A stretch of 64,000 nucleotides of DNA from Nostoc sp. ATCC 43529 (GTDB lineage: Bacteria > Cyanobacteriota > Cyanobacteriia > Cyanobacteriales > Nostocaceae). The DNA lies in contig LWTK01000042.1 in assembly GCA_003326205.1 (NCBI GenBank), positions 1 to 64,000 of the forward strand, read 5' to 3'. Below are positions 15,874 through 49,782 of this stretch, in pieces. How positions within the stretch are numbered: the stretch's first letter is position 1; each line of letters begins with the position of its first letter. The notes under the pieces were generated by a model, which did not search any database, was not told the DNA's origin, and saw nothing but the letters and a program-made list of their open reading frames with translations. The translations under genes were made by a program, and so were the position numbers.

Positions 15874-15931
15874 ATCTTACTTTAAAATGGGTAATTTTTT
15901 ATGGAATCGAACTGAAGCTGAGGTAGTTTTA

Positions 15932-16805: not shown

Positions 16806-16807
16806 TT

Positions 16808-20129: not shown

Positions 20130-20143
20130 TGGTTATTTAAAAA

Positions 20144-22818: not shown

Positions 22819-22835
22819 ATTTTGGGATCTAATTA

Positions 22836-23621: not shown

Positions 23622-23718
23622 ATATTTCCGATTTAGGGAACTTACTGATAAATTGATATACTAATAAAACAAACTGATGTGCTTTTTGCCAAACTATCAA
23701 ATCTTGAAATGTCTTAGC

Positions 23719-23752
23719 TGACTCCTGAATTCTGACTCCTGAATTCTGACTA
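23719..23752. repeat. Short tandem repeat of the GACTCCTGAATTCT type
   Basis: About 2.4 copies of a 15-bp unit (CTGACTCCTGAATT) between the VirB8- and VirB6-like genes. It is the same repeat family as at 3492-3526 and 30809-30831, typical of Nostoc intergenic DNA. Confidence 0.75.
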
Positions 23753-23753
23753 A

Positions 23754-24905: not shown

Positions 24906-24974
24906 AGCACTTGGTTAACAGGCGTGAAGGTTTGGCCATCTCAATTGCAGAGATGACCAACTAATTAGGGTGAA

Positions 24975-25706: not shown

Positions 25707-25819
25707 ACTTTTTGTGGATAAAATAACCAATGTGGCAATTAAAGTTAAGCCACTTTTTTATGATTTATTTATTCTTCTTTTTCCCAGTCCAGATTATTTG
25801 TTAGTTTGTCTTATATAAT

Positions 25820-33377: not shown

Positions 33378-33656
33378 GGATGTGATATTCGATACAACAA
33401 TACTAGTGAGAGCGATTAGAACTTAATAGTATTTTTTATACATAATTTTTACCAGAAATACTGTTTGTAGTTGTAACATCTAAAATTAGATTGAAATTTT
33501 GCGTAAAATCTTGCTTATTCTAGAGAAAAATAGATAAATGCATTCGTTTCACATCTACATTTAGAGGTAGTTGAGACAATGACTGAGCTTGAGTCGCGTT
33601 CTGGGTATGAACTGCTCAGAGAGATATAGAGCATCCTAAAAAGGGTAAAAGATAAG
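33378..33656. promoter_or_regulatory. Upstream region of the sigma-like gene
   Basis: A/T-rich 279-bp region without a gene. It holds one of the five TTTGCGTAA-N18-GAAA sites (33498-33528), 129 bases before the start codon. Confidence 0.5.
33498..33528 (+). promoter_or_regulatory. TTTGCGTAA-N18-GAAA site D, upstream of the sigma-like gene
   Basis: TTTGCGTAA at 33498-33506 and GAAA at 33525-33528, the same spacing as the other four sites. It would allow the sigma-like protein to control its own gene and the operon behind it. Confidence 0.55.
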
Positions 33657-34631
33657 ATGAATACACAAGAGTTAGTTGATTTACTCAAGGAGTATCAAAA
33701 TACTTCACCTGAAAGAGAGGAAAAAAAACATATAAAAATTCAAATTATTGCACATTTATCTTCATGCTATTGGTGGCATTCTCAATATATTATCAATCTT
33801 TTTTCTGAAGAGATTAAGCAAATAAAAGAAAATTTACAACAAGAACTAGGAGATACATTTCAACTTCATATAAACAAAAAAAATAACTCTAAAGAATTAG
33901 CAGATTTTTTGCTAAAAGAAGCTTTAATTATCCAAAAAAAATATCAAAGAAAGTTAATTACAGATAAATTTATCAATACTTTAGCAATAGAAATTAAAAA
34001 AACTCAAGCGAATAGCTTTCAAAGAAAACAAGCCGTGCAATGCCTGATTAAGGCTATGGAAATAAAAAATACATATAAGAAACAAGGACTTGGGTCAACT
34101 TTACAATTATCTCCACAAGATTATGAAGATGCTTTTCTAGAAGCTAAAGGAGAGTCTATTCGCTATGTTTTAGATAAAATTGACCGATATGATGAAACAA
34201 TTGGAGATTTTATGGCTCTGATAAATCACTGGATTTCTATAAAATTTTCAGATGCAGCTGGCAGAATATTAGGATTCAAAAAAAGTCAATCTAAGAAACA
34301 AGAAGAAGACAAAATCAGCATTTCTCCCGTAGACATCAATTTAATGAGAGAATATCTTTTTGAGAATGCTGAACAAGAATTTGCTTACTATCAACAATCC
34401 GAAGAAATTAAAAATCTCATCCATGAAGATCCTAACAATAAACTTGGCAAACCAATTAGAAAGGACAGAACAGATATTACATTTAAAGATGTATTAATTG
34501 CTATCAATTGGGAAGGAGAAACATTTAAAAATCTCTCAAATAAATGGAACATACCATACACTACTATCAAAAGCTTTTACGAACGAGAATTTGAAAAAGT
34601 AAAAGCTGATTTAGCAGAATATTTACAATAA
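33657..34631 (+). CDS. Sigma-factor-like protein of the CHAT cluster
   Basis: 324 residues, basic and helical. The C-terminal 50 residues, ITFKDVLIAINWEGETFKNL then SNKWNIPYTTIKSFYEREFE, form a HTH like sigma region 4. The N-terminus HIKIQIIAHLSSCYWWHSQY and the middle (about 155-200) are compatible with sigma-70 region 2, but the motif is weak. In cyanobacteria proteins of this kind are encoded directly before DUF1822 and CHAT genes, as here, and are annotated as sigma-70-family. If it is an alternative sigma factor, the five repeated upstream sites are its natural candidates. DNA binding is likely; the sigma role is inferred. Confidence 0.65.
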   Translation: MNTQELVDLLKEYQNTSPEREEKKHIKIQIIAHLSSCYWWHSQYIINLFSEEIKQIKENLQQELGDTFQLHINKKNNSKELADFLLKEALIIQKKYQRKLITDKFINTLAIEIKKTQANSFQRKQAVQCLIKAMEIKNTYKKQGLGSTLQLSPQDYEDAFLEAKGESIRYVLDKIDRYDETIGDFMALINHWISIKFSDAAGRILGFKKSQSKKQEEDKISISPVDINLMREYLFENAEQEFAYYQQSEEIKNLIHEDPNNKLGKPIRKDRTDITFKDVLIAINWEGETFKNLSNKWNIPYTTIKSFYEREFEKVKADLAEYLQ

Positions 34632-34651
34632 ATAATTAGGGATTATAAGTC

Positions 34652-35632
34652 ATGAATACTTGGGAACTAACTGAAACTTTTATCTTCACGGTTAATCTAA
34701 AATCGGTTCACAGAGAAATAGCCAAACAGTTGAGCCGAAAAAAATTAACTACAGTTAAAGCAAAAGAGTTCTATTATAATGTTTTGGCTTTATGTACTGT
34801 GAAGGATTATTTAGAATCTCTGGGATATGAAACTGATTGGAATAACAGCGACTTTAACAATCCTGTAATGTCCACCTTTGCTGATGTAGCAGATTTAGAA
34901 GTTAAAAATTACGGTAAGTTAGAATGTCGTGCAGTTTATGGTGATGGCGATATTCATGTTCCAGAAGATGCTTGGTCAAGTCGTATTGGTTATATATTTG
35001 TACATATAGATGAATCGTTACAAGAAGCAAATCTTCTTGGTTTTGTATCCTCAGTAGAAGAAACAGAAGGAGTTGTAGCTTTTAATCAATTACGTTCTTT
35101 GGAATATTTGCCTGAATATCTTAGCCAAAAAGAACAGTCCGAAATAACTGTTAAACAAACTCTTGGTGAATCAATCAAAGAAAAAGTCGTAATACTCAGA
35201 CATTGGTTTAAAGAAACTAAAGAAAATATTGGACGAGAATGGCAAAATGCGGAAGAGTTGTTAATGAGACAACCACAAAATCTCAGTTATATGACTAGAA
35301 ATAGTTCTGAAGCTATTAATAAAGCTAAATTAATTGACTTAAAAATGAATTTAGCTAGTCAAGCAGTAATGTTGCTGATGACTGTGACACCGCAAGCAGA
35401 ACAAAAGCTAAAAATTCGCGCTCGCTTATGTCCAGTTTCTGGAGAAAAATATTTACCATTAGGGTTGAAATTAGAGGTACTTTCTCAATTAGAAGAAACT
35501 CTCAAAGAAGTCAAATCTGAATTTAGAGATTATTTTATTCAGTTACCAGAGTTTACTAGTGAATCAGGAGATAAGTTTAAGCTGAGAATAAGTCTTGGTG
35601 ATGCTAACATAACTGAAGAATTTATCGTTTAG
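34652..35632 (+). CDS. DUF1822 family protein
   Basis: 326 residues, soluble. Family features: HREIAKQLSRKKLTTVKAKE, then YNVLALCTVKDYLESLGYET, then VMSTFADVADLEVKNYGKLE, and SRIGYIFVHIDESLQEANLL. DUF1822 proteins are restricted mainly to cyanobacteria and lie next to a sigma-like gene and a CHAT gene; an anti-sigma or sensor role has been assumed but not shown, to my knowledge. It starts 20 bp after the sigma-like gene and 23 bp before the CHAT-CHASE2 gene, so it is co-transcribed. Confidence 0.85.
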   Translation: MNTWELTETFIFTVNLKSVHREIAKQLSRKKLTTVKAKEFYYNVLALCTVKDYLESLGYETDWNNSDFNNPVMSTFADVADLEVKNYGKLECRAVYGDGDIHVPEDAWSSRIGYIFVHIDESLQEANLLGFVSSVEETEGVVAFNQLRSLEYLPEYLSQKEQSEITVKQTLGESIKEKVVILRHWFKETKENIGREWQNAEELLMRQPQNLSYMTRNSSEAINKAKLIDLKMNLASQAVMLLMTVTPQAEQKLKIRARLCPVSGEKYLPLGLKLEVLSQLEETLKEVKSEFRDYFIQLPEFTSESGDKFKLRISLGDANITEEFIV

Positions 35633-35655
35633 TTTTTAGAGCGTGACGAACAATA

Positions 35656-38055
35656 ATGAAGAAAATTATTTCTTTGCGATTGGGAGAGGGAAATTTTAAA
35701 ATCGGGTTTTCTCAGATTTTATTGAAGCTGTATGCAGGAGAACAATTACTTGAAGAAATAGATACTGGGAGCCTACCACCTAACCAAGAAATTGAAGAAA
35801 ATTATCAAAAATGGCAGTGTCTATATGAGGCTTTCATTAGTACTGGAGGTAGTTTTTTATATGGAGATTTTGACAGTCAAAGTATTGGTTTTAAACCGAG
35901 AGTATTAGAATTTGCTGAAGATAATATAGAGCGAGGAAGTCAAGAAAGTGCAACAGAAGTAACTGCTTATATGATTAAGATAATTAATCAATGGCTGAAC
36001 TCGCCAGAATTTCAATTAATAGACCAAGCTTTACGCACTAACATAAATACGAAAGATGAAGTTGTTTTAGTAATTCAAACTAATAACGATATATTAAGAA
36101 AATTACCGTGGCATGAATGGAATTTCTTCAAGAAGTACACAAAAGCAGAAGTGGCTTTAAGTGCGCCTAAATTTTCTTTAAAACTAAAACAAAAGTCGTC
36201 AACTGTTGGAAAAGTACGCATATTAGCAATTATTGGAGATTCTACTAATATCGATCCAGAAGCAGATTTGAATACTCTCAGAAATAATCAGGAAGTAGAG
36301 TTAGAAATTATCTCTCAGCCTACTCGTAAGCAAATTTGCGATCGCCTTAGAGAAAAATCAGGCTGGGATATCTTATTTTATGCTGGACATAGTAAGTCTA
36401 ATGCACAGAAAGGATGGATCAGTATCAACGCGAAAACCAAGCTAGAAATATCCGAGTTAAATTCAGCATTAGAAGTAGCAATAGAAAATGGGTTACAACT
36501 AGCCATATTCAATTCCTGTCAAGGTTTAGGATTAGTACCTCAACTTGAAGAGTTAGGAATTCCTCAGATTATTGTGATGCGAGAGCAAGTTCAAAATCAA
36601 GTAGCTCAAGAATTTTTAGCGGAGTTTATTGCTAGCTTTTCTAGCGGTAAATCTTTCTATCTAGCTATACGAGAAGCTAGAGGTAGACTTAAAGATATAG
36701 AAGATAAATATTACTGTGCAAGTTGGCTACCTGTAGTCTGTCAACATTGGTCTGTTAAACCACCTACTTGGGAAGAATTACGTGACCCTGCATTACCATC
36801 TCCTCCAAACCTACTATTTCGTCAAGGAGGAGTAATTTTATCTGGTTTATTGGTAGCGATGATGGTAATAGGAGTGCGGTCTTTTGGTTTATTACAATCC
36901 TTAGAATTTCAAGCTTTCGACTGGTTGATGAGAATGCGTCCCCAGGAAGAGGTAGATTCTCGGTTGTTAATAGTTGAAGCTACAGAAAAGGATATCAATC
37001 GCTTGGGTTATCCTATATCTGATGGTAAACTAGCTGAAACTATCGAGCGCATAAAACACTATAAACCTAGCACAATCGGTTTATTAATATTCCGCGATCG
37101 CCCGATAGAACCAGGTCATCAAGAATTACTTAAGCTTTTACAAAATGATGATGATTTAATTGCTTTATGTAGTGTTAAATTGACTGATAATGACCATAAT
37201 CAACCTGGTATTTCATCACTGTCTAGAGTTACAGAAAACCGTTTAGGGTTTAGCAATGTAGAGCGAGACAAGTTTGATGGGATTCTGCGTCGTCATCTAC
37301 TGTTCATGAATCCCGATTTTAATAATCCCTGTCCTACCAGCTTTTCCTTTAGCTTTCAATTAGCATCGCAATACTTAAACTCAAAAGGAATCAAACCTGA
37401 AGAAATAGATAGCGATCGCATCAAAATTGGTGAGACGATAATTAACCGTTTAAGACCAGATAGTGGTGCATATCATCAACTAGATAATCGTGGTTTTCAA
37501 CTCTTACTTAATTATCGCACCTCCGATAAGATTGCTAATACAGTTTCTTTGACTGATGTATTAGAAAATAAGTTAGATCCCGAATTAATAAAGGGGCGTA
37601 TTGTCATTATTGGTGTAGTTGCTCCCATATCTAATCCTACAGATTACTTTTCTACTCCTTATAGTAAAGGTGTATTGCCTCAGATGTCTGGAGTTGATAT
37701 TCAGGCGCAAATGACAAGTCAAATCCTCAGTGCGGTTTTAGATAAACGACCTTTATTGTGGAGTTGGTCTGAAATAGGAGAAGGATTTTGGGTTGTAATC
37801 TGGTCTTTAACAGGAAGTGGAATTGCGATCACCTCCTTAAATCATCGTAATTCTTTTTTACTGATTATATATGCTGGAACATCTATATTTACTCTGTGTC
37901 TAATTTGCTTTGTCTTTTTACTACAAGGGGGATGGATACCATTGTTACCAGCTGCAATCTCTTTCGCTGTCAGTAGCTTTGCTGGACGGTTTTTACTAAA
38001 ACATTGGGATCGAATACCTAGTTTAAAGTTTTTGCAAAGTAGAAATAATACGTAA
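35656..38055 (+). CDS. CHAT peptidase-like / CHASE2 sensor membrane protein
   Basis: 799 residues. Residues 150-370 form a CHAT domain (caspase-HetF-associated), with the putative catalytic His at about 245 (ILFYAGHSKSNAQKGWISI) and Cys at about 287 (LAIFNSCQGLGLVPQLEE). After a membrane span (VILSGLLVAMMVIGVRSFGL, about 393-412), residues 415-690 form a CHASE2 extracellular sensor domain. Three membrane spans end the protein. CHASE2 domains sense outside signals, and CHAT domains are caspase-like proteases, so an envelope signal may activate a cytoplasmic protease. It follows DUF1822 closely in one operon. Confidence 0.88.
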   Translation: MKKIISLRLGEGNFKIGFSQILLKLYAGEQLLEEIDTGSLPPNQEIEENYQKWQCLYEAFISTGGSFLYGDFDSQSIGFKPRVLEFAEDNIERGSQESATEVTAYMIKIINQWLNSPEFQLIDQALRTNINTKDEVVLVIQTNNDILRKLPWHEWNFFKKYTKAEVALSAPKFSLKLKQKSSTVGKVRILAIIGDSTNIDPEADLNTLRNNQEVELEIISQPTRKQICDRLREKSGWDILFYAGHSKSNAQKGWISINAKTKLEISELNSALEVAIENGLQLAIFNSCQGLGLVPQLEELGIPQIIVMREQVQNQVAQEFLAEFIASFSSGKSFYLAIREARGRLKDIEDKYYCASWLPVVCQHWSVKPPTWEELRDPALPSPPNLLFRQGGVILSGLLVAMMVIGVRSFGLLQSLEFQAFDWLMRMRPQEEVDSRLLIVEATEKDINRLGYPISDGKLAETIERIKHYKPSTIGLLIFRDRPIEPGHQELLKLLQNDDDLIALCSVKLTDNDHNQPGISSLSRVTENRLGFSNVERDKFDGILRRHLLFMNPDFNNPCPTSFSFSFQLASQYLNSKGIKPEEIDSDRIKIGETIINRLRPDSGAYHQLDNRGFQLLLNYRTSDKIANTVSLTDVLENKLDPELIKGRIVIIGVVAPISNPTDYFSTPYSKGVLPQMSGVDIQAQMTSQILSAVLDKRPLLWSWSEIGEGFWVVIWSLTGSGIAITSLNHRNSFLLIIYAGTSIFTLCLICFVFLLQGGWIPLLPAAISFAVSSFAGRFLLKHWDRIPSLKFLQSRNNT

Positions 38056-38132
38056 GAATGGTGATAACGTTATATGTAGGTAATACGGAGAAAGCTTATT
38101 TACCTCTATATAATTAGTTACAAATATTATTA

Positions 38133-38891
38133 ATGAGCAAAATAATAGCTTATATTTCCCTTTTAACTTTAACTTTATTCTTAGGCGATCGCTATTTGAT
38201 TTACCCAGTAGCTGGTCAAAATCTTCCAACCAAAGAACCGCTTCAGTTTAAACCTCCTAACAATGGCGCACCAGGAGGGAATCGCTCTGGATCTTCTGGT
38301 AACACAGGAAGTCGTCCTATTTGTCCTACTGTAGAAAAAGATATCACTGCTTTAATACCGAAAACAAATTGGGCAAATACCCTTGCTGAACGTCCTACTT
38401 TTTGGTTTTACATTCCTTACGAACGGGGTCGTTTAAAGCTAATTCTTAAAGATGAAGGCAAAAGTACTATTGTAGCTCGCGTGAATTATGAAGTTAATAA
38501 AGGTGGAGGTATCATGGGTTTCCCAATACCTAAAACTTCACCTGCTTTAGAAGTAAATCGTGCTTATCGTTGGCAAGTTTCCTTTAGTTGCGAACCCAAT
38601 ATTGAACCTTCATTCACAGGAGTACAGGGAGTAGTGGAACGAGTAGCGAAAAACGAAGCTTTTAAAACTAAATTGACATCAACCACTACTATCCAAGGAC
38701 AAATTAATTTATATGCCAATCAAGGTTTATGGCATGAAACTATTTCTACATTAATTCAATTACGTCGATCTAAACCGACAGAGCAAGAATTAAAACAAGA
38801 TTGGTCAGATTTATTATCCAATACCCATGTAGAATTAGCAGGATTCATTTCCGAGCCTTTAGTTGAATGTTGTAATCCTATTCCTGAATAA
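38133..38891 (+). CDS. DUF928 family protein (exported)
   Basis: 252 residues. The N-terminus MSKIIAYISLLTLTLFLGDR followed by YLIYPVAGQ is a signal peptide. The mature part starts with a Gly/Ser-rich linker, then the DUF928 domain: ITALIPKTNWANTLAERPTF, WFYIPYERGRLKLILKDEGK, MGFPIPKTSPALEVNRAYRW. DUF928 is a cyanobacterial family of unknown function, often beside CHAT genes. The gene lies 77 bp after the CHAT-CHASE2 gene and 12 bp before the TPR-CHAT gene. Confidence 0.85.
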   Translation: MSKIIAYISLLTLTLFLGDRYLIYPVAGQNLPTKEPLQFKPPNNGAPGGNRSGSSGNTGSRPICPTVEKDITALIPKTNWANTLAERPTFWFYIPYERGRLKLILKDEGKSTIVARVNYEVNKGGGIMGFPIPKTSPALEVNRAYRWQVSFSCEPNIEPSFTGVQGVVERVAKNEAFKTKLTSTTTIQGQINLYANQGLWHETISTLIQLRRSKPTEQELKQDWSDLLSNTHVELAGFISEPLVECCNPIPE

Positions 38892-38903
38892 TTTACATAA
38901 AAT

Positions 38904-41723
38904 ATGAAAAAACAACATAAAAACATCAAAATATTCTTGACATTTTTGGCATTATTTAGTGTGATTTTCACCTCTAGCTTGAGTTTGTTATCTTTTCAAT
39001 TGCCTGTGGCGATCGCTCAAAATAATACTAAAGCAGAAGCCGATAGATTAAGGCAGCAGGGAGAAAAACAATTAGAAGCAGGACAATATGTAATAGGTAC
39101 AAATACTCTCGAACAGGCAATGAGGATTTATCAGCAAATTGGAGATAAAAAAATTGCTAATGAGGTTAGAGATAGACTTATTCGTATTTATGGGTTACGA
39201 GGAGTATACGATAAATATGAGCAGTTAACTGCTGAGAAAGCTGAAGAAAATCTTGAAGAAGGAGAACAAAAACCTAAATATGAATTTCAATTAAGTCCCC
39301 AAGTCGGAAAATTAATTTCTCAAGGCTTAAATCGGCAAAACCAACAAGATTCTGTTAGAGCAAAAGAATATTTTCAGCAAGCATTATCTCAAGCCAAAAC
39401 GATTGGGAGAGAACAAGACAAAGTTACAGCTTTCGCAACACTAGGAGCATTTTATCTCTACCAAGAAGATTACGTTAATGCTCTAGCTAATTTACAGCCA
39501 GCCGAGCGATTATCAGCAGCTATATATAGAGCTAGAAAACCAGGCGATTCTGATTATGAGCAAGAAATTTCAATAAATCGCATTCCTATTTTATTACTAA
39601 TAGCTGAAACCTATTTACAGAAACAACAACCTAATCAAGCATTACTGTATATTAAAGAAGTTGACGCAATAACACCCACACCAGACAATTGGAACGACAT
39701 CTCACTTCGCTATCTTTTCCATTTCATAGATTTTAGAGATCCTTCGCTTTACTTCAGTCGAGTACACTATAGTTTAGGAAATTACAATGAAGCCCTGACT
39801 TATGCTCGAAAAGCTATAGAAAGAGGTAAAATTTTTCAAAATTATTATGAGATACATGGCAATGGCAATGGCGACATACCCAGGATTGATCGTGAAGGTG
39901 ACTTAGGTAGTGGACACGGCCATGTTTTAGCTGGAATTGCTTTAGAAAAATTAGGACAGCTAGAACAGGCAGAGGAAGAATTACGAAAAGCTACTCAATT
40001 ATTTGAATATATTAGGACAAAATCTAGATTTCAAGGACATACTCGACACATTTTTAAACTATTTAACAATCAAGTTCGTGCTACTTCTTTTTTACAGCGA
40101 GTTCTCTTAGCTCAAAACAAACCAGAAGAAGCCTTAGCTGCTTCTGAATGGGGACGTGCGCGATTATCGTTAGAAGCGGCAACTGCACCTAGCAATCTGA
40201 CCTTAAAAGAAAAAGTGGATGCTTTAGTAGATATTGTTTACACTCCTGAAATTATTTGTAAGCAAATTTCTCAAGATATTCAATATTCTCTAGATTCATA
40301 TCGTAGAATCGGAGTTGACCGTATATATAATAGCGAAGGCAAAGCGTTCTTATTGTCAGATTTAGCAAAATTTGATTGCGATAAGGAAGCAGAAGCACAA
40401 ATCCGGCAAATAAAAGAAACCTGGTTAAAAAGTGCAACATCAAATCCAGCAAATCTTGATGAACTAGTAACTCTTGCCAATAAATCTCCATCAACTATTA
40501 AACCTCCAGCTATAGAACAACTAAAACAAATTGCACGGTTTAATCAGGCAACCCTTGTACAATATTCAATTATTTCTGAAACTACATTTTTCCATCCAGC
40601 CAATCTTCCTTATGATCATAATGATGCCCATTGGAACGCATTTGCTGGAGAAGAACAGAAATTAGTTATTTGGGTAATCAAACCCACAGGACAAATCAAA
40701 TCCCGTCAAATCGATTTGAAAAATCAAAAAATTACCCTCAGCAACTTAGTAACTAATACCCGTAAAACTATGGGATTAGATCGCAGTGTTGGAGTATTCC
40801 TTAAACCAGATGCAGAATTACCCGATGGTTCTACTCGCAATCCTTCTGAAGTTCAAGCCAAAGAAAAACTTAAACAACTCCATGAATTACTCATAGAACC
40901 CATTGCTGATTTACTACCAAGCAACCCAGAAGCCAAAGTAGTTTTTGTTCCTCATAAAGAACTATTTCTTGTTCCTTTTGCAGCTTTAATCGACTCGAAA
41001 GATAAGTATCTCATCGAAAAACACACCATTATCACTGCACCTTCAATTCAAGCCTTAGATGTTACCCGACAAAAACGGCAGAAACAAACTGGAAAGAGTA
41101 AACTTGCAGTAGTAGTAGGCAATCCCACAATGCCTACAATTAAGCGACCTAATAACCAATCTCCCACACAACTAAATAATTTACCTGGTGCAGAACGAGA
41201 AGGAAAAGAAGTTGCTCAACTGCTGAATGCTGAGTTTTTAACAGGAAATCAAGCAACTAAAGCCGAGGTGTTAAAACAGTTACCCAATGCACGCTATATT
41301 CATTTAGCAACTCATGGACTATTAGAAGATTTTGCGAGTTTTGGTATCCCAGGAGCAGTTGCTCTAGCACCTTCTAATCAAGATAATGGCTTTTTAACTT
41401 CTAGTGAAATTCAAGAGTTGAATTTACAAGCCGAATTAGCCGTTCTCAGTGCTTGTGACACAGGCGGAGGCGATATTACCGGAGATGGAGTTGTCGGTTT
41501 ATCTAGAGCCTTAATCGTTGCTGGAGTTCCTAGTATTGTGGTTTCTTTATGGTCTATTCCTGATGCAGAGACAGCCGAACTAATGGTGGAATTTTACCGT
41601 AATTTTCAAGAGCGTAAGTTAGACAAAGCTCAAGCGTTGCGTCAGGCGATGTTGGAGATCATGAAAACTCATCCTAACCTTGTTGATTGGGCTGGTTTTA
41701 CTTTAATTGGACAATCAAAATAG
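38904..41723 (+). CDS. TPR-CHAT caspase-like protein (exported)
   Basis: 939 residues. A signal-like segment (FLTFLALFSVIFTSSLSLLS) lies at 11-30. Residues 45-460 are TPR repeats (e.g. YEFQLSPQVGKLISQGLNRQ, SVRAKEYFQQALSQAKTIGR, GNYNEALTYARKAIERGKIF). Residues 620-939 are the CHAT domain, with His at about 804 (YIHLATHGLLEDFASFG) and Cys at about 850 (LAVLSACDTGGGDITGDGVV). The His-Cys pair is intact, so protease activity is plausible. TPRs probably bind partners. Last but one gene of the locus. Confidence 0.88.
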   Translation: MKKQHKNIKIFLTFLALFSVIFTSSLSLLSFQLPVAIAQNNTKAEADRLRQQGEKQLEAGQYVIGTNTLEQAMRIYQQIGDKKIANEVRDRLIRIYGLRGVYDKYEQLTAEKAEENLEEGEQKPKYEFQLSPQVGKLISQGLNRQNQQDSVRAKEYFQQALSQAKTIGREQDKVTAFATLGAFYLYQEDYVNALANLQPAERLSAAIYRARKPGDSDYEQEISINRIPILLLIAETYLQKQQPNQALLYIKEVDAITPTPDNWNDISLRYLFHFIDFRDPSLYFSRVHYSLGNYNEALTYARKAIERGKIFQNYYEIHGNGNGDIPRIDREGDLGSGHGHVLAGIALEKLGQLEQAEEELRKATQLFEYIRTKSRFQGHTRHIFKLFNNQVRATSFLQRVLLAQNKPEEALAASEWGRARLSLEAATAPSNLTLKEKVDALVDIVYTPEIICKQISQDIQYSLDSYRRIGVDRIYNSEGKAFLLSDLAKFDCDKEAEAQIRQIKETWLKSATSNPANLDELVTLANKSPSTIKPPAIEQLKQIARFNQATLVQYSIISETTFFHPANLPYDHNDAHWNAFAGEEQKLVIWVIKPTGQIKSRQIDLKNQKITLSNLVTNTRKTMGLDRSVGVFLKPDAELPDGSTRNPSEVQAKEKLKQLHELLIEPIADLLPSNPEAKVVFVPHKELFLVPFAALIDSKDKYLIEKHTIITAPSIQALDVTRQKRQKQTGKSKLAVVVGNPTMPTIKRPNNQSPTQLNNLPGAEREGKEVAQLLNAEFLTGNQATKAEVLKQLPNARYIHLATHGLLEDFASFGIPGAVALAPSNQDNGFLTSSEIQELNLQAELAVLSACDTGGGDITGDGVVGLSRALIVAGVPSIVVSLWSIPDAETAELMVEFYRNFQERKLDKAQALRQAMLEIMKTHPNLVDWAGFTLIGQSK

Positions 41724-41753
41724 ATTAGTAATTCGTCGCATTAATTTTGATGA

Positions 41754-41810
41754 GTTTGTAGTAAGCACTTCAGTGCTTAAAAATCCAGGACTAAAGTCCT
41801 TACTACAAAC
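41754..41810. repeat. Nostoc-type inverted repeat (GTTTGTAGTAAGCACTTC...)
   Basis: Outer arms GTTTGTAGTAAG and CTTACTACAAAC enclose the pairs GCACT/AGTGC and GGACT/AGTCC. It forms a cruciform-like structure between the CHAT and caspase genes, and is a common cyanobacterial interspersed repeat. Confidence 0.8.
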
Positions 41811-41952
41811 TTATTCACCCCTCGGAAGTAATGCGACAGTTCACTAAATTGACATTATTAGAAGAGATTTTAGCAATATTTAAAAATTCATTTTGAATGA
41901 TGAATACTGAATTATTTTTTGTTAAAGATTACGAATTAATTATTAGTTAACT

Positions 41953-44226
41953 ATGTCTCATTTCAAACGCCGCCAATTTCTGCAATTCGCTACTTCTGCT
42001 TTAACAACTTTGGGATTAAATCAGTTAGATATCAAAAATCCAAGCTTACGCTATGCTCAAGCTATTGCCTCTTCTAGTCCTCGGAAATTAGCGTTGTTAG
42101 TAGGAATCAACAATTATCAAAACGTTGATAACCTCAAAGGTGCAATTACTGATACTTATCTGCAAAGAGAACTATTAATTCATCGTTTTGGCTTTAATCC
42201 TCAAGATATATTAATAGTTAGCGATGAAAGTGAAATTAAGCCGACTCGCCAAGGAATTTTACAAGCCTTTGAAGAACATCTCATTAAACAGGCAAAACCA
42301 GGGGACATTGTAGTTTATCACTTTTCAGGACATGGTTCTCAAGTATTCGACCGAGAGAGTGCTTTGGAAGACAAACTTAATAGTACTTTTGTACCTAGCG
42401 ATCGCACTACTTCTCTAGCCGATAATCAAAAGCAAGTTTCTGACATTACGGGTAAGACTTTGTTCTTATTAATGTCACAAATAAAAACCGAAAATCTCAC
42501 TGTTGTTTTAGATAGTTGTTATTCAGGAGGAGGGAAACGGGGAAATCTAACTATTAGGTCAATTGAAGGCGGAAAAGGATACATTTCTAGCGACATCGAA
42601 CGAGAATATCAACAAAAATTGCTGTTTGATTTAGGTATATCTCCCGAAGAACTAGAACAACGCCGAAAACAGGGTATTGCTAAAGGAGTAGTAATTGCTT
42701 CAGCCAGAAAAAACCAAGTCGCTTCCGAAGCATACTTGGATAATTTTGTCACAGGAGCATTTACTTATTTGATGACTCAATACCTGTGGCAAGAAAATAG
42801 TAACACTCCACTTGAGAATGTCATTACTAATATCTCTCGCAGCATCAACAGTACTTTTACCTCTAATCAAATACCAGAACTTGAAGCCAAAAACAATAGT
42901 AATAATGAAACAAAACCAACATATTTTATTTCTAGACCAGTCCCCACTGCGGAAGCAGTAATTACTCAAGTTAGGGGGAATAATGTTAATCTTTGGTTAG
43001 GAGGAATAGCACCTCAAGCTCTTGCAGCTTTCAACCAAAATCCCATCTTTGAGCTAGTAGACAACCAAGGAGTTAAGCGAGGCAGAATACAATTACAATC
43101 TCGCAAGGGGTTGACGGGTGAAGGCAAAATTTTAGAACTGCAAAAACCAGAATTGTTAAAACCAGGAGCATTATTACAAGAAGGAGTTAGAGTGATTCCC
43201 TCTAATTATAAATTGCGGATTGGATTAGACGATTCTTTAGGTAAAGATATCGCTGTAGCCAGAAATGAAATCGCCGAAATTGAGCGACTCCAGCCAGTTG
43301 TCTTACAAACAGGGGAAGTTCATTATATTTTTGGTCGGATAACAGAAGTACAACAAACAGAATTAAGAAACAAACAAGCTACCTATATTCCTCCTCTCCA
43401 TAGTTTGGGTTTATATACAGAAGGACTCGATTTAATTCCTGGTTCTTTTGGTAATGCGAAAGAAACCATAAATGATGCCTTAACTCGACTCAAACCTAAA
43501 TTTCGTTCTCTTTTGGCAGCGAGAATCATCAAATTAACTTTAAATGCCAACTCATCGCGTCTCAACGTATTGGCTTCCTTAAATATTTTACGTCCAAAAG
43601 AATTAGATGTAACCGTTGCTGCTCAAACATTTACTTCTCGTTCACCAAGCAAAATCGATCAAAATTCATTCACACCCGCCACAAATACTAATATTAATTA
43701 TCAAAATGGCATTCCTCAAATTCCTTTAAAAACACAAATTCAATTTCAAGTTAAAAATCAGGAAAATAGCGACCTCTACATTACAGTATTAGCGATTAAC
43801 CCCGAAGGAAAGATTGATGTTATCTTTCCTAACACTTGGTCATCTGCCGAGGATGCCACCTTAGTTAAAGCGGGAGAAACTCTGGCAATACCCAAGGCAC
43901 AGGATACTTGGGTATTAGGAATTATTGAACCTCTAGGATTAACAGAAATATTAGTCGTTGCTAGCAAATCACCTTTAAGAAAGAGTTTGCAGAGTTTACA
44001 AACTATTGCTCAAAAACAAGGAAGAGGAGATGTACCTGTCACCTTAGCAGATAATCCCACCAATATTATCGACCTCTTATTAGAAGATATTGATAGTAGC
44101 ACTCTTCCAGAAAACCGTAGTAGAAATAATTCCAACTCTTCTGAGATTACTTCTAGACAAAAAGCTCTTTTGAGTGATACTACTCAATTAGCAGCCATGT
44201 CCATTACCTATCAAGCTGTGAAATAA
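41953..44226 (+). CDS. Caspase family protein (orthocaspase) with DUF4384
   Basis: 757 residues. The N-terminus KRRQFLQFATSALTTLGL looks like a twin-arginine signal with RR. The p20-like domain, residues 48-270, has RKLALLVGINNYQNVDNLKG, the catalytic His at about 126 (VVYHFSGHGSQVFD) and Cys at about 189 (VVLDSCYSGGGKRG). The C-terminal DUF4384 domain (about 600-680) is visible as QFQVKNQENSDLYITVLAIN. Orthocaspases cleave after Arg/Lys and are linked to stress and cell death. 229 bp after the TPR-CHAT gene; it may be co-transcribed or separate. Confidence 0.9.
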   Translation: MSHFKRRQFLQFATSALTTLGLNQLDIKNPSLRYAQAIASSSPRKLALLVGINNYQNVDNLKGAITDTYLQRELLIHRFGFNPQDILIVSDESEIKPTRQGILQAFEEHLIKQAKPGDIVVYHFSGHGSQVFDRESALEDKLNSTFVPSDRTTSLADNQKQVSDITGKTLFLLMSQIKTENLTVVLDSCYSGGGKRGNLTIRSIEGGKGYISSDIEREYQQKLLFDLGISPEELEQRRKQGIAKGVVIASARKNQVASEAYLDNFVTGAFTYLMTQYLWQENSNTPLENVITNISRSINSTFTSNQIPELEAKNNSNNETKPTYFISRPVPTAEAVITQVRGNNVNLWLGGIAPQALAAFNQNPIFELVDNQGVKRGRIQLQSRKGLTGEGKILELQKPELLKPGALLQEGVRVIPSNYKLRIGLDDSLGKDIAVARNEIAEIERLQPVVLQTGEVHYIFGRITEVQQTELRNKQATYIPPLHSLGLYTEGLDLIPGSFGNAKETINDALTRLKPKFRSLLAARIIKLTLNANSSRLNVLASLNILRPKELDVTVAAQTFTSRSPSKIDQNSFTPATNTNINYQNGIPQIPLKTQIQFQVKNQENSDLYITVLAINPEGKIDVIFPNTWSSAEDATLVKAGETLAIPKAQDTWVLGIIEPLGLTEILVVASKSPLRKSLQSLQTIAQKQGRGDVPVTLADNPTNIIDLLLEDIDSSTLPENRSRNNSNSSEITSRQKALLSDTTQLAAMSITYQAVK

Positions 44227-44265
44227 CCAGCAACCAGATAGTTATGCTTAAAAAAGTTTTGAGAG

Positions 44266-44296
44266 TTTGCGTATTTGTTGAAACTTTGATGCGAAA
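44266..44296 (+). promoter_or_regulatory. TTTGCGTA-N18-GAAA site A
   Basis: TTTGCGTAT at 44266-44274 and GAAA at 44293-44296, 71 bases before the 175-residue gene. Same layout as four other sites. Confidence 0.55.
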
Positions 44297-44367
44297 AATT
44301 TAGTGAATCGGCTTTTGATCTTTTTGCTTGATTAAAGCAATAAAACCTAATTTACAAATTACCACAC

Positions 44368-44895
44368 ATGCACCTTCTATCCAACATCATCCCCCAAAGT
44401 AACGCGCCTTTGAGATATTTAACTCAAAAACTGGCAATATTAGCTTTATCTACTGTATCTCCCCTATTCTTATCTGTCGAAAAGGCAGCAGCAAGTACTA
44501 GCTGGCAACCTGAGACTTTACGAGAAATATTGCAATTGCAAGTCCAGGTAGCAAAAAAATACTGCCCAGTTGGAATAAATGCGGAAAATTTAAAATTAGG
44601 TATCGAGACTTATCTCAGACGTAACGATATCCCTATTACTAAAACTAACACAGTTGGCAGCATCCCTTATATACACATTTCCATTGCATGTAAAACGCGC
44701 GAACCTTTGGCTTTCCTGATTTCTTTGGAAGTTATTCAATATGTAGAACTGAATGGAAGAAAGATAAAGGCTTCTACATACAGTATTCCCGAAACTTATG
44801 GAACAGGTAATATATCTGGATATTCTAATAGCGAGCAGCAGTTCATAGTGACTATGCTTAAGGAATTTATATCTGATTGGAAATCGGTTAGATAA
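44368..44895 (+). CDS. Hypothetical exported protein, 175 residues
   Basis: Not recognised. The hydrophobic stretch LAILALSTVSPLFLSVEKAA (about 24-43) is probably a signal sequence. The mature 130 residues contain two Cys (KKYCPVG and ISIACKTREPLAF) and a helix-strand pattern. It sits just behind the caspase gene with its own site A upstream. Its link to the caspase locus is inferred from position and the shared motif. Confidence 0.6.
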   Translation: MHLLSNIIPQSNAPLRYLTQKLAILALSTVSPLFLSVEKAAASTSWQPETLREILQLQVQVAKKYCPVGINAENLKLGIETYLRRNDIPITKTNTVGSIPYIHISIACKTREPLAFLISLEVIQYVELNGRKIKASTYSIPETYGTGNISGYSNSEQQFIVTMLKEFISDWKSVR

Positions 44896-45285
44896 TTAGA
44901 TAATAATTACTTTTTATCTTTTATCAACCAATACGCTTGGGTTAAGACTAACAACCCAACCTACAATTTTCCTTAACTGAACCGTATTGTTTTATAAACA
45001 ATAGACTTATTGCAAAAATCTGAATTATAAAAAAACCACAGATGTAACCGTTTAGAGATGGTTTCATAGAGACCATTGTCGATAAGTGAGCGTATTTGTG
45101 AACCCGCCCCTACTTCTGACTGTTTTTCACTATGGTGAAAAATAAACAATTAACCATTTATTCAAAAAATACAATAAATTTTGCTAGTTTGCGTAATTTT
45201 TTAGACTTAGATGCGAAATATTAATAAATCAGCCAACCAATATATTTTGATATTTTGCTGTATTTGCAGTTCAAGGAGCTAAACC
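44896..45285. other. Intergenic region with site B
   Basis: Contains a fragment of the ACCCAACCTAC-type repeat near 44956 and site B (45188-45218). No gene of protein character was seen. Confidence 0.5.
45188..45218 (+). promoter_or_regulatory. TTTGCGTAA-N18-GAAA site B
   Basis: TTTGCGTAA at 45188-45196 and GAAA at 45215-45218, 67 bases before the 95-residue gene. Confidence 0.6.
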
Positions 45286-45573
45286 ATGAAGCAAATGATA
45301 ACTGTTGCCGGAGGGGTATTCTTTTCTGTTGGAATTATGTTTCTACTTTTGGGAGGTTGGACTTTTTGGGAGAAAATTAAATTTGAAAATGAATTTAAAA
45401 GTCGAGGTCAGTTTAATACAACAATTAGTAAATTGTCGGGCTGGGAAGAGTTAAACAAACAAGAATTAGAACGGAAGCAAAATTTAGTATTTACCTTTCT
45501 TGTGATTGCTGGAATCTCTGGTTCTATGGGCGTTGGTCTTGCTATTGCCGGAAAAAATCAGCCTACACAATAA
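45286..45573 (+). CDS. Small two-span membrane protein, 95 residues
   Basis: Two membrane segments (GGVFFSVGIMFLLLGGWTF at 9-27, LVFTFLVIAGISGSMGVGLA at about 67-86) flank a charged 40-residue part. CAAGGAGC precedes the start. Unknown family. Site B lies upstream. Confidence 0.65.
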   Translation: MKQMITVAGGVFFSVGIMFLLLGGWTFWEKIKFENEFKSRGQFNTTISKLSGWEELNKQELERKQNLVFTFLVIAGISGSMGVGLAIAGKNQPTQ

Positions 45574-45775
45574 GAAGTGATACCGTTTTTTTCAACGCAA
45601 AGGTACGCAGAGGTTTTTACCGGAATAATTAGGCGCATCTTCATAGAAAATTGGTGCGAATTTAATTGCAGCATACTTTTTAACTGACTGCACAGCACAT
45701 CTTATGAAAACTTTTATTTCACCTTCAAGTCTTTCGCCAATTGATTATACCAGAATTGCAAGAGGAAATAACAAA

Positions 45776-46438
45776 ATGAAGAAATTACTTGCAGGAATCT
45801 CAGCATTAGGTTTATCGATTACTTCTCCAGGTATTGCCAATGCACAGGAGTTTACTAATTTTGAGCATCAAGATAATAAATATTACTATGAAACACTAAA
45901 TTCTCAAGGTCTTGCTTACTATAGATATAAAGTTCCTGCCTATACTTTTGGGATTTTTACACTCAAAAATCACAGTCGCAGTTCAAATGTCGATATTTAC
46001 GTGCATGACTATTCTGGAGACTGGAAGCTATTGGTTAAAGGAAACAACCAGGGGACGGAAACAGAGTTAGTTGTCACGCCAATGTTTTCGGAAGATAAAT
46101 ATGCGTATATCACGATAGTTAATGATGGTTCACAACCATCTGAATATCATTTGTATGCAAATTATGTCAGTCCTGCTAATAGGTTTGCTATTGCATTGGC
46201 TGAAACTTCTTTAATATGTAGTCTTGAAAAAGAAAATATTCCCAATGAAACATCTTCTAGAGTAGTTACAGGGCTTTCTTCAATACTTCAAGGCAATAAT
46301 TTGGCGGGTGTAACTCAAGACCTTTTAATTAATGAATTCACCAACGCAATGAGGAATCAATTTGGTTATGGATGTACGGGTGATTTTGTAGTCAATTGGG
46401 GAGTTTCGATGTTCAGAGGTGTTTACAGAAACTATTAG
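45776..46438 (+). CDS. Hypothetical secreted protein, 220 residues
   Basis: The ATG at 45776 follows AGAGGAAATAACAAA and gives a perfect signal peptide (MKKLLAGISALGLSITSPGI then ANAQEF). The mature part is beta-rich: YRYKVPAYTFGIFTLKNHSR, VDIYVHDYSGDWKLLVKGNN, similar in look to bacterial pre-peptidase C-terminal or PPC-like beta sandwiches. The C-terminal 60 residues have two Cys. Frame opens at 45704, but the inner start is better. It could be cotranscribed with the 95-residue gene 202 bp upstream. Confidence 0.65.
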   Translation: MKKLLAGISALGLSITSPGIANAQEFTNFEHQDNKYYYETLNSQGLAYYRYKVPAYTFGIFTLKNHSRSSNVDIYVHDYSGDWKLLVKGNNQGTETELVVTPMFSEDKYAYITIVNDGSQPSEYHLYANYVSPANRFAIALAETSLICSLEKENIPNETSSRVVTGLSSILQGNNLAGVTQDLLINEFTNAMRNQFGYGCTGDFVVNWGVSMFRGVYRNY

Positions 46439-46805
46439 TTATTTGCAGTCACTGAATCTTGTCTTCGCGCTAATGTGCAAAACTATCTACATCCAGTACC
46501 ACAAAGCGCGATCGCCACATACCAGATATAGTAATAAATTATTAAAGTAAGGTTGGTACTGTCCACCAACCTTACTACTACTCCTTAATAAGCTGTCCCA
46601 GTTTTAGAAATTCTCCGATGTTCCATAGATTCTATAATATCAAGTTCGGGTGATTACTTATAATAAAATCTATCAATGTAGGTTGGGTTGAACGGCAGTG
46701 AAACCCAACATGAATAAGGATAAAATGTTGGGTTTCGTTCCTCAACCCAACCTACAGATATTATAAGTGTTTAACCGAACCTGATATAATTTCCACCTAC
46801 AAGTA
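46439..46805. other. Intergenic region with repeats
   Basis: Between convergent genes. Holds a HIP1-like site and the GTAGGTTGGGTT inverted repeat (46677-46756). No gene seen. Confidence 0.5.
46677..46756. repeat. Nostoc-type 80-bp inverted repeat (TGTAGGTTGGGTTGA...)
   Basis: Arms TGTAGGTTGGGTTGA and its complement at the right end, with inner arms GAAACCCAACAT and ATGTTGGGTTTC. This MITE-like repeat is frequent in Nostocales intergenic DNA. Confidence 0.8.
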
Positions 46806-47498
46806 CTAGTATCCAGGCCGCACATTACAATTAGGATCGTAGTATGAATGGTTGAGACACCAGAAATTAGGCTCTTCGTCTTGTTTAGAGCCACCATTGC
46901 CACTGAAGAACGATCTTAAAAGTAACTCTCCCATAAACAAACCTGCTTCTACTTGCTTTTGTCTAAGTGCCTGTTGCTCTTTGATATAAGCTTGTTTTTC
47001 TTCTGGAGACAAACTCTCAAAATACTGTCTTCTTCTTTCAGCTTCCTGAATTTGCTTTTCTGTAGCTGCTTTACGAGCTGCATCGAGTTCTGCTTGTTGT
47101 CTTTTCCTTTCTTCCTCACGTGCTTGACGTTCTTGTATTGCTTGCTCCTGTTGTTTTCGTTGCAGTTCACGCTGCTCTATATTATGTCGTGTTTCATCTA
47201 TTTGCTCAACAGTCTTTCGGATCTCATCAAACAATCCGGCAACTATGGTGTTGTTTGGGTTTTGATGATAGTCTAATTTTTGAGTTGATAAATCTGCATT
47301 CGCTTCTTTGGATGCAGCCATGACAGGATTTATATTTGCTAGGACAATTACCACAAGTGCGATTTGGGAAAATTTTTTATTCATAGCTCTAAATGGAATG
47401 AATGAAGATTGTGATTGTTGAGAGGCTAATACAGGACTTGCAGTATTCAGTATGAGTCCGGATAAGGTCGCACTGAAAAATGGTCTTGCGTTTTTCAC
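46806..47498 (-). CDS. Hypothetical exported coiled-coil protein, 230 residues
   Basis: Two starts are possible. GTG at 47498 gives a signal-like MKNARPFFSATLSGLILNTA; ATG at 47384 gives MNKKFSQIALVVIVLANINP then VMAASKE, a classical signal peptide and 192 residues. The mature part has a 70-residue, Glu/Arg/Gln-rich coiled coil (IEQRELQRKQQEQAIQERQA) and a C-terminal Cys pair (FWCLNHSYYDPNCNVRPG). Not recognised. Site E lies about 50 bases upstream of the GTG start, in the same strand, which fits the earlier start or a leader. Confidence 0.6.
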   Translation of the reverse strand: MKNARPFFSATLSGLILNTASPVLASQQSQSSFIPFRAMNKKFSQIALVVIVLANINPVMAASKEANADLSTQKLDYHQNPNNTIVAGLFDEIRKTVEQIDETRHNIEQRELQRKQQEQAIQERQAREEERKRQQAELDAARKAATEKQIQEAERRRQYFESLSPEEKQAYIKEQQALRQKQVEAGLFMGELLLRSFFSGNGGSKQDEEPNFWCLNHSYYDPNCNVRPGY

Positions 47499-47551
47499 GG
47501 TAATTAACGACTACGGTAATTAACGACTGTAGTTTGTCAATCTATAAATAG

Positions 47552-47582
47552 TTTCTACTGAAAAGTCGTGAATTTACGCAAA
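47552..47582 (-). promoter_or_regulatory. TTTGCGTAA-N18-GAAA site E (minus strand)
   Basis: Reading the minus strand, TTTGCGTAA (47582-47574) then 18 bases, then GAAA (47555-47552), 53 bases before the GTG start of the coiled-coil protein. Same spacing as sites A to D, in the opposite direction. Confidence 0.55.
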
Positions 47583-47647
47583 TTATTCAAAAAGTTTTAG
47601 TGTGCGATTCTTGACGTAATACCTTGCTTGGAGAAAAAATTCGGTAG

Positions 47648-47678
47648 TTTGCGTAATTTATTAGATTTGACTGCGAAA
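47648..47678 (+). promoter_or_regulatory. TTTGCGTAA-N18-GAAA site C
   Basis: TTTGCGTAA at 47648-47656 and GAAA at 47675-47678, 52 bases before the RTX-type gene. Almost identical to site B over the whole 31 bases. Confidence 0.6.
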
Positions 47679-47730
47679 TACCTACTAGAGTTATCACGTT
47701 TACCGATATTAAAGACACACACTGAAAATC

Positions 47731-49782
47731 ATGGAAATTATTACAGGTAGCGGCAACGACACTGTTATCAGACCAGTTTTTGTCAACGGCACAGTATTTC
47801 GTAGCAACGACACCATCATAACTGGTGCAGGCAACGACACCATTAACCCAGGACTGGGTAAGTATGAGTATGTTGATGGTGGTGAAGGCTTTGACCACCT
47901 GATTTTGGATTACTCCGTTGGTGATACAGGCGGGGGTATGGATTTTTATAGCAACTACGCCAGTTCAGGCACAGGCTCTGCTTATCGATCTAGCGGTGTT
48001 CCAAACACCCTAGATTTAGATGATCTCCAATTCCAAAATATTGAGAAGTTCACCATCACAGGTACTAGCAAAAATGACACCATCACAACTTACTTTGGAA
48101 ACAACGTGATTAACGCAGGTGCTGGTAATGACAGTGTTACTGCTGTTGCTGGCACTTTAGATGGTGGTTCAGGCTTAGACTACCTTACTCTTGATCTCTC
48201 CACACAAACATCTAACCTAAATCTTTCTAATCTCGCAAATATCAATGTTTCTGGTGTTGTCACTGCGATCAATTTTGAGGGATTTTCGATTACTACTGGC
48301 AGTGGTAACGACATTGTTACTCATACTGGAATTGTTAACGGTGCTGTTCTGCGGACTAATGACTTAATCATCACTGGTGCTGGCAACGACACCATTAACG
48401 CAGGACTGGGTGGTGGAAGTATCAATGATGGTGATACCGTCTATGGTGGTGATGGTATTGACCGTCTGATTGTGGACTATTCCGTTGGTGATACGGGCAC
48501 TGGTATGCGTTTTGTTGGTAGTAGCACTTACGGCTTTGCCATACGAGAAGTCAGCAGCACCAACAGCACTCGCTTGGATTTGATTGGTTTCCAAGACATT
48601 GAGGAGTTCACTGTCATAGGTACTAGCAAAGATGACACCATCAATACTGTTGCTGGAAACGACATTATCAATACTGGTGCTGGAAACGACACTATCAATA
48701 CTGCCGCAGGAAATGACATTATCAATGGCGGTGCGGGAAACGACACCATTGATGGGGGTGCTGGCAATGATCGGATGACTGGCGGCACTGGCAACGACAC
48801 CTACATTGTTGACAGTACCGGAGATATCGTCACCGAAACATCAACACTCAGCACCGAAATTGACACGGTTCAAGCCTCCATTACTTACACCCTGGGAGCA
48901 AACCTAGAAAACTTGATTCTTACAGGTTTTGGAGCAATTAATGGGACTGGGAATAGCCTGAACAATAACCTGACTGGCAACCGGGGTGACAATATTTTGA
49001 ACGGGGGTATAGGTAATGACACCCTTGATGGCGACACAGGTAATGACACCCTTGATGGCGGCGCAGGTAATGACACCCTGATTGCCAGTTCAGGCAATGA
49101 TGTGATGAGGGGTGGCAGTGGTAACGACACTTACATTGTCAGTGGTTTAAATGATGACATTATTATCGAGAATGCAGGCGAAGGAATTGATACCGTTCAA
49201 GCCCCCTATACTTCTGCCCAGGGATACACTTTGGGTGCTAACATAGAAAACCTGATTTTGATAACAGGAGGAACTAATGGGACTGGCAACTCCCTCGACA
49301 ACATTCTGACGGGTAACACAAGCAATAATATTCTCAGTGGAGAAGGTGGCAAGGATACCCTGATTGGGGGAAGTGGTAATGATACTCTGATTGGGGGGGC
49401 TGGTGATGACATCCTAACCGGTGGTAGTGGCAGCGATTTCTTCCTTTACAACACCAATGCTGCCTTTAACAGTACAGCGATCGCCATTGATCGGATTACA
49501 GATTTCCAAAAAGCGAGTGATAAAATCATCCTAGATAAAACCACATTTACAGCCTTACAAAGCTCGGCTGGTAATGGATTTAGCCTGAATAATGAATTTG
49601 CGATCGTTACTAGTGACGCTGCTGCGGCAATCAGTGGAGCCAAAATTGTTTACAACCAAAGCAGAGGGGCACTCTTCTACAATCAAAATGGACTTGTGGC
49701 TGGCTTCGGAACTGGAGCAGAGTTTGCCAATCTCACCAGCAACCTGTCCTTGACTGCATCAGACTTTGTAATCCAAACTTGA
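47731..49782 (+). CDS. RTX-type calcium-binding repeat protein
   Basis: 683 residues, nearly all RTX nonapeptide repeats (GGAGNDTIDG-type), each binding calcium in the beta-roll after export. Examples: NDIINGGAGNDTIDGGAGND, DTLDGGAGNDTLIASSGNDV. The C-terminal 140 residues (FFLYNTNAAFNSTAIAIDRI, TDFQKASDKIILDKTTF) are the usual type I secretion end. The protein starts in repeats (MEIITGSGNDTV) without an N-terminal domain; an in-frame stop 7 codons upstream rules out a longer start. It may be a complete small form or N-terminally shortened. Site C upstream suggests regulation with the caspase locus. Confidence 0.85.
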   Translation: MEIITGSGNDTVIRPVFVNGTVFRSNDTIITGAGNDTINPGLGKYEYVDGGEGFDHLILDYSVGDTGGGMDFYSNYASSGTGSAYRSSGVPNTLDLDDLQFQNIEKFTITGTSKNDTITTYFGNNVINAGAGNDSVTAVAGTLDGGSGLDYLTLDLSTQTSNLNLSNLANINVSGVVTAINFEGFSITTGSGNDIVTHTGIVNGAVLRTNDLIITGAGNDTINAGLGGGSINDGDTVYGGDGIDRLIVDYSVGDTGTGMRFVGSSTYGFAIREVSSTNSTRLDLIGFQDIEEFTVIGTSKDDTINTVAGNDIINTGAGNDTINTAAGNDIINGGAGNDTIDGGAGNDRMTGGTGNDTYIVDSTGDIVTETSTLSTEIDTVQASITYTLGANLENLILTGFGAINGTGNSLNNNLTGNRGDNILNGGIGNDTLDGDTGNDTLDGGAGNDTLIASSGNDVMRGGSGNDTYIVSGLNDDIIIENAGEGIDTVQAPYTSAQGYTLGANIENLILITGGTNGTGNSLDNILTGNTSNNILSGEGGKDTLIGGSGNDTLIGGAGDDILTGGSGSDFFLYNTNAAFNSTAIAIDRITDFQKASDKIILDKTTFTALQSSAGNGFSLNNEFAIVTSDAAAAISGAKIVYNQSRGALFYNQNGLVAGFGTGAEFANLTSNLSLTASDFVIQT

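Follow-up and report, generated by a model that had tools for sequence, protein, structure and literature searches.

Neighbourhoods that join an extracytoplasmic function (ECF) sigma factor, a DUF1822 protein and an EACC2-caspase module were predicted in 2021, and activation of an autopeptidase together with transcription by the ECF factor was proposed for them (PMC8195603, eLife). The section of that paper devoted to these neighbourhoods names neither a promoter nor target genes. A gene set that fits these neighbourhoods lies in a 64,000-nucleotide stretch of DNA from Nostoc sp. ATCC 43529 (contig LWTK01000042.1, positions 1-64,000; hereafter the window, of which the letters 33,378-47,678 are shown), where an ECF-type sigma gene at 33657 adjoins a DUF1822 gene at 34652, as in the published description (PMC8195603). 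It is accompanied by five copies of a two-block site, TTTGCGTA(A/T)-N18-GAAA, and this arrangement is best read as an autoregulated sigma regulon. Compared with the gene set of PMC8195603, the window's sigma factor carries an N-terminal addition, genes for a TPR-CHAT and a C14 protein follow, and the sites lie at genes for secreted or surface proteins. The EACC2-caspase module, known for its variable C-terminus, may be represented by a CHAT domain joined to CHASE2, with an N-terminus common to an nSTAND1-WD40 protein. Gene sets of this kind have been predicted before; the promoter pattern and the output genes were not found in the literature searched, in which no paper names a promoter or target gene for sigma/DUF1822/caspase-like neighbourhoods. 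The searched passages of a 2024 survey of cyanobacterial sigma factors mention neither DUF1822 nor CHAT (PMC11119718).

Another related system is CASP-sigma of type III-E CRISPR (clustered regularly interspaced short palindromic repeats), in which the inhibitor Csx30 is cut by Csx29, a TPR-CHAT protease, and the locus itself holds sigma sites (PMC10028731). The window shares with it the presence of a TPR-CHAT protein, an ECF-type sigma factor and sigma sites in one locus (PMC10028731). It differs in having a membrane CHASE2 protein and DUF1822, and its TPR-CHAT protein scores 22.5 bits against an NCBIfam cut-off of 300 for Csx29. Autoregulated ECF regulons such as that of E. coli sigmaE carry the factor's own blocks at the sigma gene and at its target genes. 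The window resembles this regulon in that a pair of short, evenly spaced blocks precedes the sigma gene and target genes, whereas the block sequences differ from those of sigmaE and the window's protein stays below the Pfam and NCBIfam thresholds.

The two-block site in the window and across genomes

The sites, the sigma gene and the candidate target genes are as follows.

33498..33528, plus strand: site A, exact match, preceding the sigma gene's own operon
33657..34631, plus strand: ECF-like sigma factor (by profile comparison and relatives' fold), 324 residues, about 100 of them an extra N-terminal part
44266..44296, plus strand: site B, exact match
44368..44895, plus strand: target gene B, 175 residues, exported by eye, 71 bases past site B, no Pfam match
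45188..45218, plus strand: site C, exact match, kept in four distinct genomes including Calothrix NIES-4105
45286..45573, plus strand: target gene C, 95 residues, a small membrane protein by eye, downstream of site C
45704..46438, plus strand: protein exported by eye, without a site of its own, 130 bases after 45286 on the same strand, 34 homologues
47552..47582, minus strand: site D, exact match, kept in three distinct Nostoc sequences
46806..47498, minus strand: target gene D, 230 residues, exported by eye, 53 bases past site D
47648..47678, plus strand: site E, exact match, kept in three distinct Nostoc sequences
47731..49782, plus strand: target gene E, RTX repeat protein of 683 residues (PF00353, 1.7e-52)

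All five sites given in the initial annotation were confirmed at their coordinates with the exact 18-base spacing, against 0.01 matches expected in the window, and five matches were reached in none of 100 shuffles. GAAA stands 128 bases before the start codon of the sigma gene and 71, 67, 53 and 52 bases before those of the others; this agrees with the 50-130 bases given in the initial annotation, and every copy in the locus is oriented toward its gene. The genome-wide scan that had been proposed finds seven exact copies in the whole assembly (8,458,523 bases), five of them within 14.2 kb (P = 2.8e-13 for at least five of seven in one named stretch of that length), and the pattern read backwards has no match across the 8.46-Mb genome. 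The two copies outside the locus lie inside an opposite-strand open reading frame (ORF) and in an intergenic, TTTGCGTAAGTCCT-repeat-like stretch. With free spacing, TTTGCGTAW-N(5-31)-GAAA has 58 matches genome-wide, seven at gap 18 and seven at gap 14, the latter mostly from a dispersed TTTGCGTAAGTCCT repeat, with a mean of 2.0 for the other gaps; when two mismatches are allowed, the window holds 12 matches where 5.9 are expected. Genome-wide, the 18-base gap does not stand out by itself, and the case is carried by clustering and conservation. As a side observation, G000, G013 and other Nostoc genomes have many dispersed copies of TTTGCGTAAGTCCT(A/G), whose surroundings vary and which account for many TTTGCGTAW matches.

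The initial annotation had named equal frequency within genes as a refuting result. Outside the sigma locus, matches at 43 loci divide into 22 within ORFs of at least 90 codons and 21 between ORFs (mechanically called). Within the locus the sites are intergenic, except for site E, which falls inside a mechanical reverse-strand ORF of 103 codons (47587-47898) and whose counterparts in two relatives are intergenic by the same kind of call. Sites B, C and E are similar to one another between the blocks and A and D differ there, so the five sites amount to about three independent instances within one genome. Export of the target proteins is judged by eye; the product of 45286 has the look of a small membrane protein, and no N-terminal signal is seen in the RTX protein. 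The gene at 45704..46438 is possibly co-transcribed with 45286.

Among 59 genomes searched for the exact pattern, four have a close sigma orthologue (G000, G002, G005, G013) and hold 7, 7, 6 and 7 copies, of which 5, 5, 4 and 4 are in the locus (on two contigs in G005). The other 55 genomes hold 0-4 scattered copies, none of one genome's listed copies lying within 15 kb of each other on a contig. The exact pattern is again found upstream of the sigma gene in two Calothrix genomes, and the gene's own site is present in all five distinct orthologous upstream sequences from Nostoc and Calothrix. In the alignment of these five regions the longest kept stretch is TTTTGCGTAA.ATCT.G.T.ATT...GAGAAAA, and a second one, AGCATCC, lies near the sigma start codon. 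The core GCGTAW-N16-GMGAAA occurs in the locus in 4 of 9 (G000), 4 of 8 (G002), 4 of 5 (G005), 4 of 6 (G013), 2 of 8 (Calothrix NIES-4105) and 2 of 5 (a Calothrix metagenome-assembled genome, MAG) of all matches per genome; the reversed core gives 1, 2, 1, 1, 6 and 3 matches in the same six carriers. With a wrong spacing, N14 instead of N15 before TGCGAAA, none of the listed matches falls in the sigma locus.

Homologues of 45286 provide a further comparison. They occur in 15 of 217 Nostocaceae genomes, and a site lies 59-67 bases before the homologue in 5 of 5 sigma carriers, the Calothrix copy having two outer letters changed; these are not five independent events, because the carriers are related and two are identical at the site. 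In the 10 genomes with a homologue and no sigma gene, a site within 300 bases at up to two mismatches was found in 0 of 10. The Calothrix MAG has the sigma gene and is outside the 15 genomes with a 45286 homologue. In Calothrix NIES-4105 genes for an exported protein and an RTX protein come next on the homologue's strand; because this site-bearing operon also leads to an RTX gene, the RTX protein belongs to the gene set of both lineages, and the separate site E is found only in the Nostoc one. These patterns are in line with the earlier proposal of a regulon that includes the sigma gene itself, as the sites track the sigma gene across genomes, and, judged by conservation, the sites are probably functional. 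An order-wide search of 388 genomes gave no further close sigma orthologue; beyond G000 and G005 it returned just the distant G066 and G193. A plasmid collection gave five records, each below 60% identity and short of 80% query coverage. Where the sigma gene is missing, homologues of 45286 often lie near other small exported-protein genes (L174-L182), which in L175, L177, L180 and L182 include, by eye, a relative of 46806.

The sigma-like protein and the promoter pattern of its group

The description of 33657 as sigma-like is supported, by profile comparison and by the predicted fold of its relatives. Profile comparison (E 9e-29) links the 324-residue protein to a large group of cyanobacterial proteins whose predicted structures are those of ECF sigma factors; in that group, as in the window, the sigma gene has DUF1822 and CHAT-protease genes after it. 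Both sigma2 and sigma4 domains were found for the window's protein; the evidence is weaker in its own predicted structure. Pfam and NCBIfam sigma models match neither the window's protein nor its 16 orthologues, seven scanned relatives are also under the cut-offs (best NF007228, 3.6e-12), and a sequence search of the PDB gave no sigma factor for the window's protein up to E 10. Long relatives clearly have sigma2 twice: hhalign matches their N-terminal part to the group's sigma2 at 99.3% (E 2e-20). For the window's protein it is a lead only, because hhalign support is weak (32.6%, E 5e-4 against the long relatives' N-terminus; 27% over 22 columns against the group's sigma2). Sigma relatives of 306-352 residues with tandem sigma2-like copies were noted at L097 (1435-2463), L128/L135, L019 and L021.

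The fixed block pattern before the group's sigma genes is a new finding. It was derived from 37 upstream sequences, left from 54 after 17 near-identical ones were dropped, and 25 downstream stretches, left from 29 after dropping four that were too short. TTTTGTAAC-N-CGTAAAA, mostly with a gap of 15 or 16, is matched at at least 13 of 16 positions in 23 of the 37 regions (expectation 0.85; 20 rounds of shuffling gave no more than 4), a count that is not independent because the block words were chosen after reading the same sequences. A blind motif search of the downstream stretches placed CaGAGAaAtAaATAGA exactly 14 bases past CGTAAAA in 18 of the 25. The order is fixed: an RpaB-box-like element, CGTAAAA, then CAGAGAAA..ATAGA. 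In relatives' loci of 13-20 kb, TTTTGTAAC-CGTAAAA occurs once each, before the sigma gene, in 9 of 9; these loci represent three orthologue groups, and their upstream regions were among the 54.

In the consensus of the 23 regions the first element is part of a longer TGTAAAGTTTTGTAACAA, both halves of which are kept. This fits, on the other strand, the HLR1 (RpaB box) consensus (G/T)TTACA(T/A)(T/A)NN(G/T)TTACA(T/A)(T/A) as given in PMC11633204, and is a box predicted by sequence match; TGTAAAGTTTTGTAAC before relatives' sigma genes likewise matches the published consensus on the other strand (PMC11633204). The RpaB box is a possible light-stress input in these relatives. In many relatives, for example L022, L194 and L211, the distance from the TGTAAAGTTTTGTAAC element to the CGTAAAA that follows is fixed at 15-16 bases.

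The window differs in that the box was not seen at the same position before window-type sites, for which the TTTTGTAAC half was scored at gaps 14-17 and reached a best of 2-6 out of 9 in 17 sequences, with a shuffled mean of 3.8. TTTTGTAAC-N15/16-CGTAAAA at at least 13 of 16 has five matches in the window, none of them at a site or upstream of the sigma gene. The two blocks of the window resemble a shortened version of the group pattern, in which the second and third elements (GCGTAA, GMGAAA) are kept.

The proposed regulon and its alternatives

The five sites may be promoters read by the sigma factor at 33657, serving its own operon and the neighbouring genes for surface and secreted proteins, with TTTGCGTAA as -35, GMGAAA as -10 and release of the factor by proteolysis; we give this combined reading a probability of roughly 0.45. 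Its assignment of the blocks, taken from sequence features, is preferred at about 2 to 1, and if GMGAAA is the -10, transcripts would therefore start 5-10 bases past GAAA. At window-type sites an A-rich tract 10-16 bases ahead of TTTGCGTA, with TTT after it, has the position of a UP element if the first block is the -35. In relatives, the centre of the RpaB box would then lie an estimated 55-60 bases before the start, and under the opposite assignment the box would sit on the promoter itself; activating RpaB sites are found some 50-100 bases ahead of the start and repressing ones close to it (PMC11633204).

Several observations weigh against the proposed regulon. G000 and G002 are near-identical and the carriers are related; sites B, C and E are possible duplicates; Foldseek alone, at E <= 0.001, finds no sigma match for the model of the window's protein or for that of its relatives (best for the latter SigK, 1.2e-3); the second and third elements stand two bases closer in the window sites than in relatives; and a role for DUF1822 as candidate sigma partner or inhibitor is a guess from its constant position. 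CGTAAAA, moreover, is compatible with an ECF -10 as well, and four relatives have their start codon 30 bases past it, which would leave almost no leader if CAGAGAAA were the -10.

In an unlikely variant the regulon is the same, CGTAAWW is the -10, GMGAAA is a kept element about 10 bases into the transcript and the -35 is degenerate in the window sites. It would move the predicted start sites about 20 bases upstream. The TTTTGTAAC-N15/16-CGTAAAA geometry of the 23 relatives' regions is that of an ECF -35/-10 pair, and region 2 of sigmaE has been solved bound to GTAAAA, according to the title of 5or5. Against this, window-type sites match TTTTGTAAC no better than shuffles, yet keep GMGAAA, and TTTTGTAAC is part of a longer, two-half RpaB-box-like element. 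The initial annotation's equation of the first block with a -35 and the second with a -10 gains from the A-rich tract and the kept GMGAAA and loses from the fit of CGTAAAA; its promoter interpretation is partly supported and right in outline. A two-part site for a DNA-binding regulator, or a kept transcript leader, with promoters proper used by another sigma factor, is still less probable. It would account for three fixed-spacing elements in relatives rather than two, one of them RpaB-box-like, and for letters partly kept up to 41 past the TTTGCGTA start; however, the blocks form no inverted repeat, always face a gene and co-occur with the sigma gene, and no regulator gene was noticed travelling with the locus, although no systematic search was made. 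That the sites are copies of a dispersed repeat near genes by chance is very improbable: the abundance of TTTGCGTAAGTCCT and the related look of B, C and E would suit such an origin, but A and D are unlike them between the blocks, GTCCT is in none of the sites, and orthologous genes in Calothrix have the blocks too.

Operon neighbours and a putative proteolytic switch

The genes between the sigma gene and site B encode the following proteins.

34652..35632, plus strand: DUF1822 protein, directly downstream of the sigma gene (PF08852, 1.6e-58)
35656..38055, plus strand: CHAT protease-like domain with C-terminal CHASE2 (PF05226, 3.4e-64; PF12770, 5.3e-12)
38133..38891, plus strand: DUF928 protein, exported by eye (PF06051, 7.3e-50)
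38904..41723, plus strand: TPR-CHAT protein (PF12770, 1.2e-72)
41953..44226, plus strand: caspase-like (C14) protein with DUF4384 (PF00656, 1.6e-22; PF14326, 5.6e-17; PADLOC caspase model, 6.4e-22)

The order DUF1822, CHAT-CHASE2, DUF928, TPR-CHAT, C14 is kept, by sequence starts, in L034, L035 and L037, in whose loci no counterpart of site B was seen; L036 ends inside the TPR-CHAT gene. By eye, the CHAT and caspase-like proteins have the His and Cys of the usual motifs (YAGHS/NSCQG, ATHG/SACDTG, FSGHG/LDSCYSG). PADLOC returned its generic caspase model only, for 41953-44226, and no family for the five other proteins given. The N-terminus of the CHAT-CHASE2 protein shares 43% identity over 388 columns with an nSTAND1 and WD40 protein beside another sigma-DUF1822 pair. 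In the deposited contig of L034 (Nostoc calcicola FACHB-3891), the CHAT-CHASE2 and TPR-CHAT frames are each in two pieces (11997-14406 and 15379-18180).

In the proposed regulon, the sigma factor would drive a small neighbouring set of surface and secreted-protein genes, RTX included, as well as its own operon, which holds the sigma, DUF1822 and CHAT-CHASE2 genes and probably extends to the CHAT and caspase genes after them. DUF1822 or a partner would keep the factor inactive; a signal at the CHASE2-CHAT protein, a candidate sensor, would trigger proteolysis, and the freed factor would act on its own gene in positive feedback. By analogy with the CRISPR-linked CASP-sigma system, the three protease-like genes beside the sigma gene may set the switch. 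A wider extension of this analogy is tentative and rather doubtful: a CRISPR-free, CASP-like circuit widespread in cyanobacteria, in which a sensor part (CHASE2, elsewhere nSTAND1-WD40) fused to a CHAT protease would free a DUF1822-held ECF sigma factor, with feedback through the fixed block pattern, RpaB light-stress input in many relatives, and surface and RTX proteins switched on in this lineage. The window's factor would count as derived, having a second sigma2 that is degenerate and a shortened promoter. The sites offer a concrete readout for protease control of the sigma factor, the signal sensed and the output. At E <= 1e-20, relatives of the sigma factor (the DUF1822-linked group) were found in 181 of 291 genomes of the order, so many loci would become accessible through a single tested promoter.

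As to the genomic setting, ORFs on the minus strand of the window at 16808-28648 resemble, by eye, a conjugation-type (VirB/Tra) secretion set, and the locus may lie on a conjugative plasmid in this genome. The contig of the window measures 146.9 kb; a near-twin in G002 is on a 222-kb contig, and the locus of Calothrix NIES-4105 is on an 11-Mb contig.

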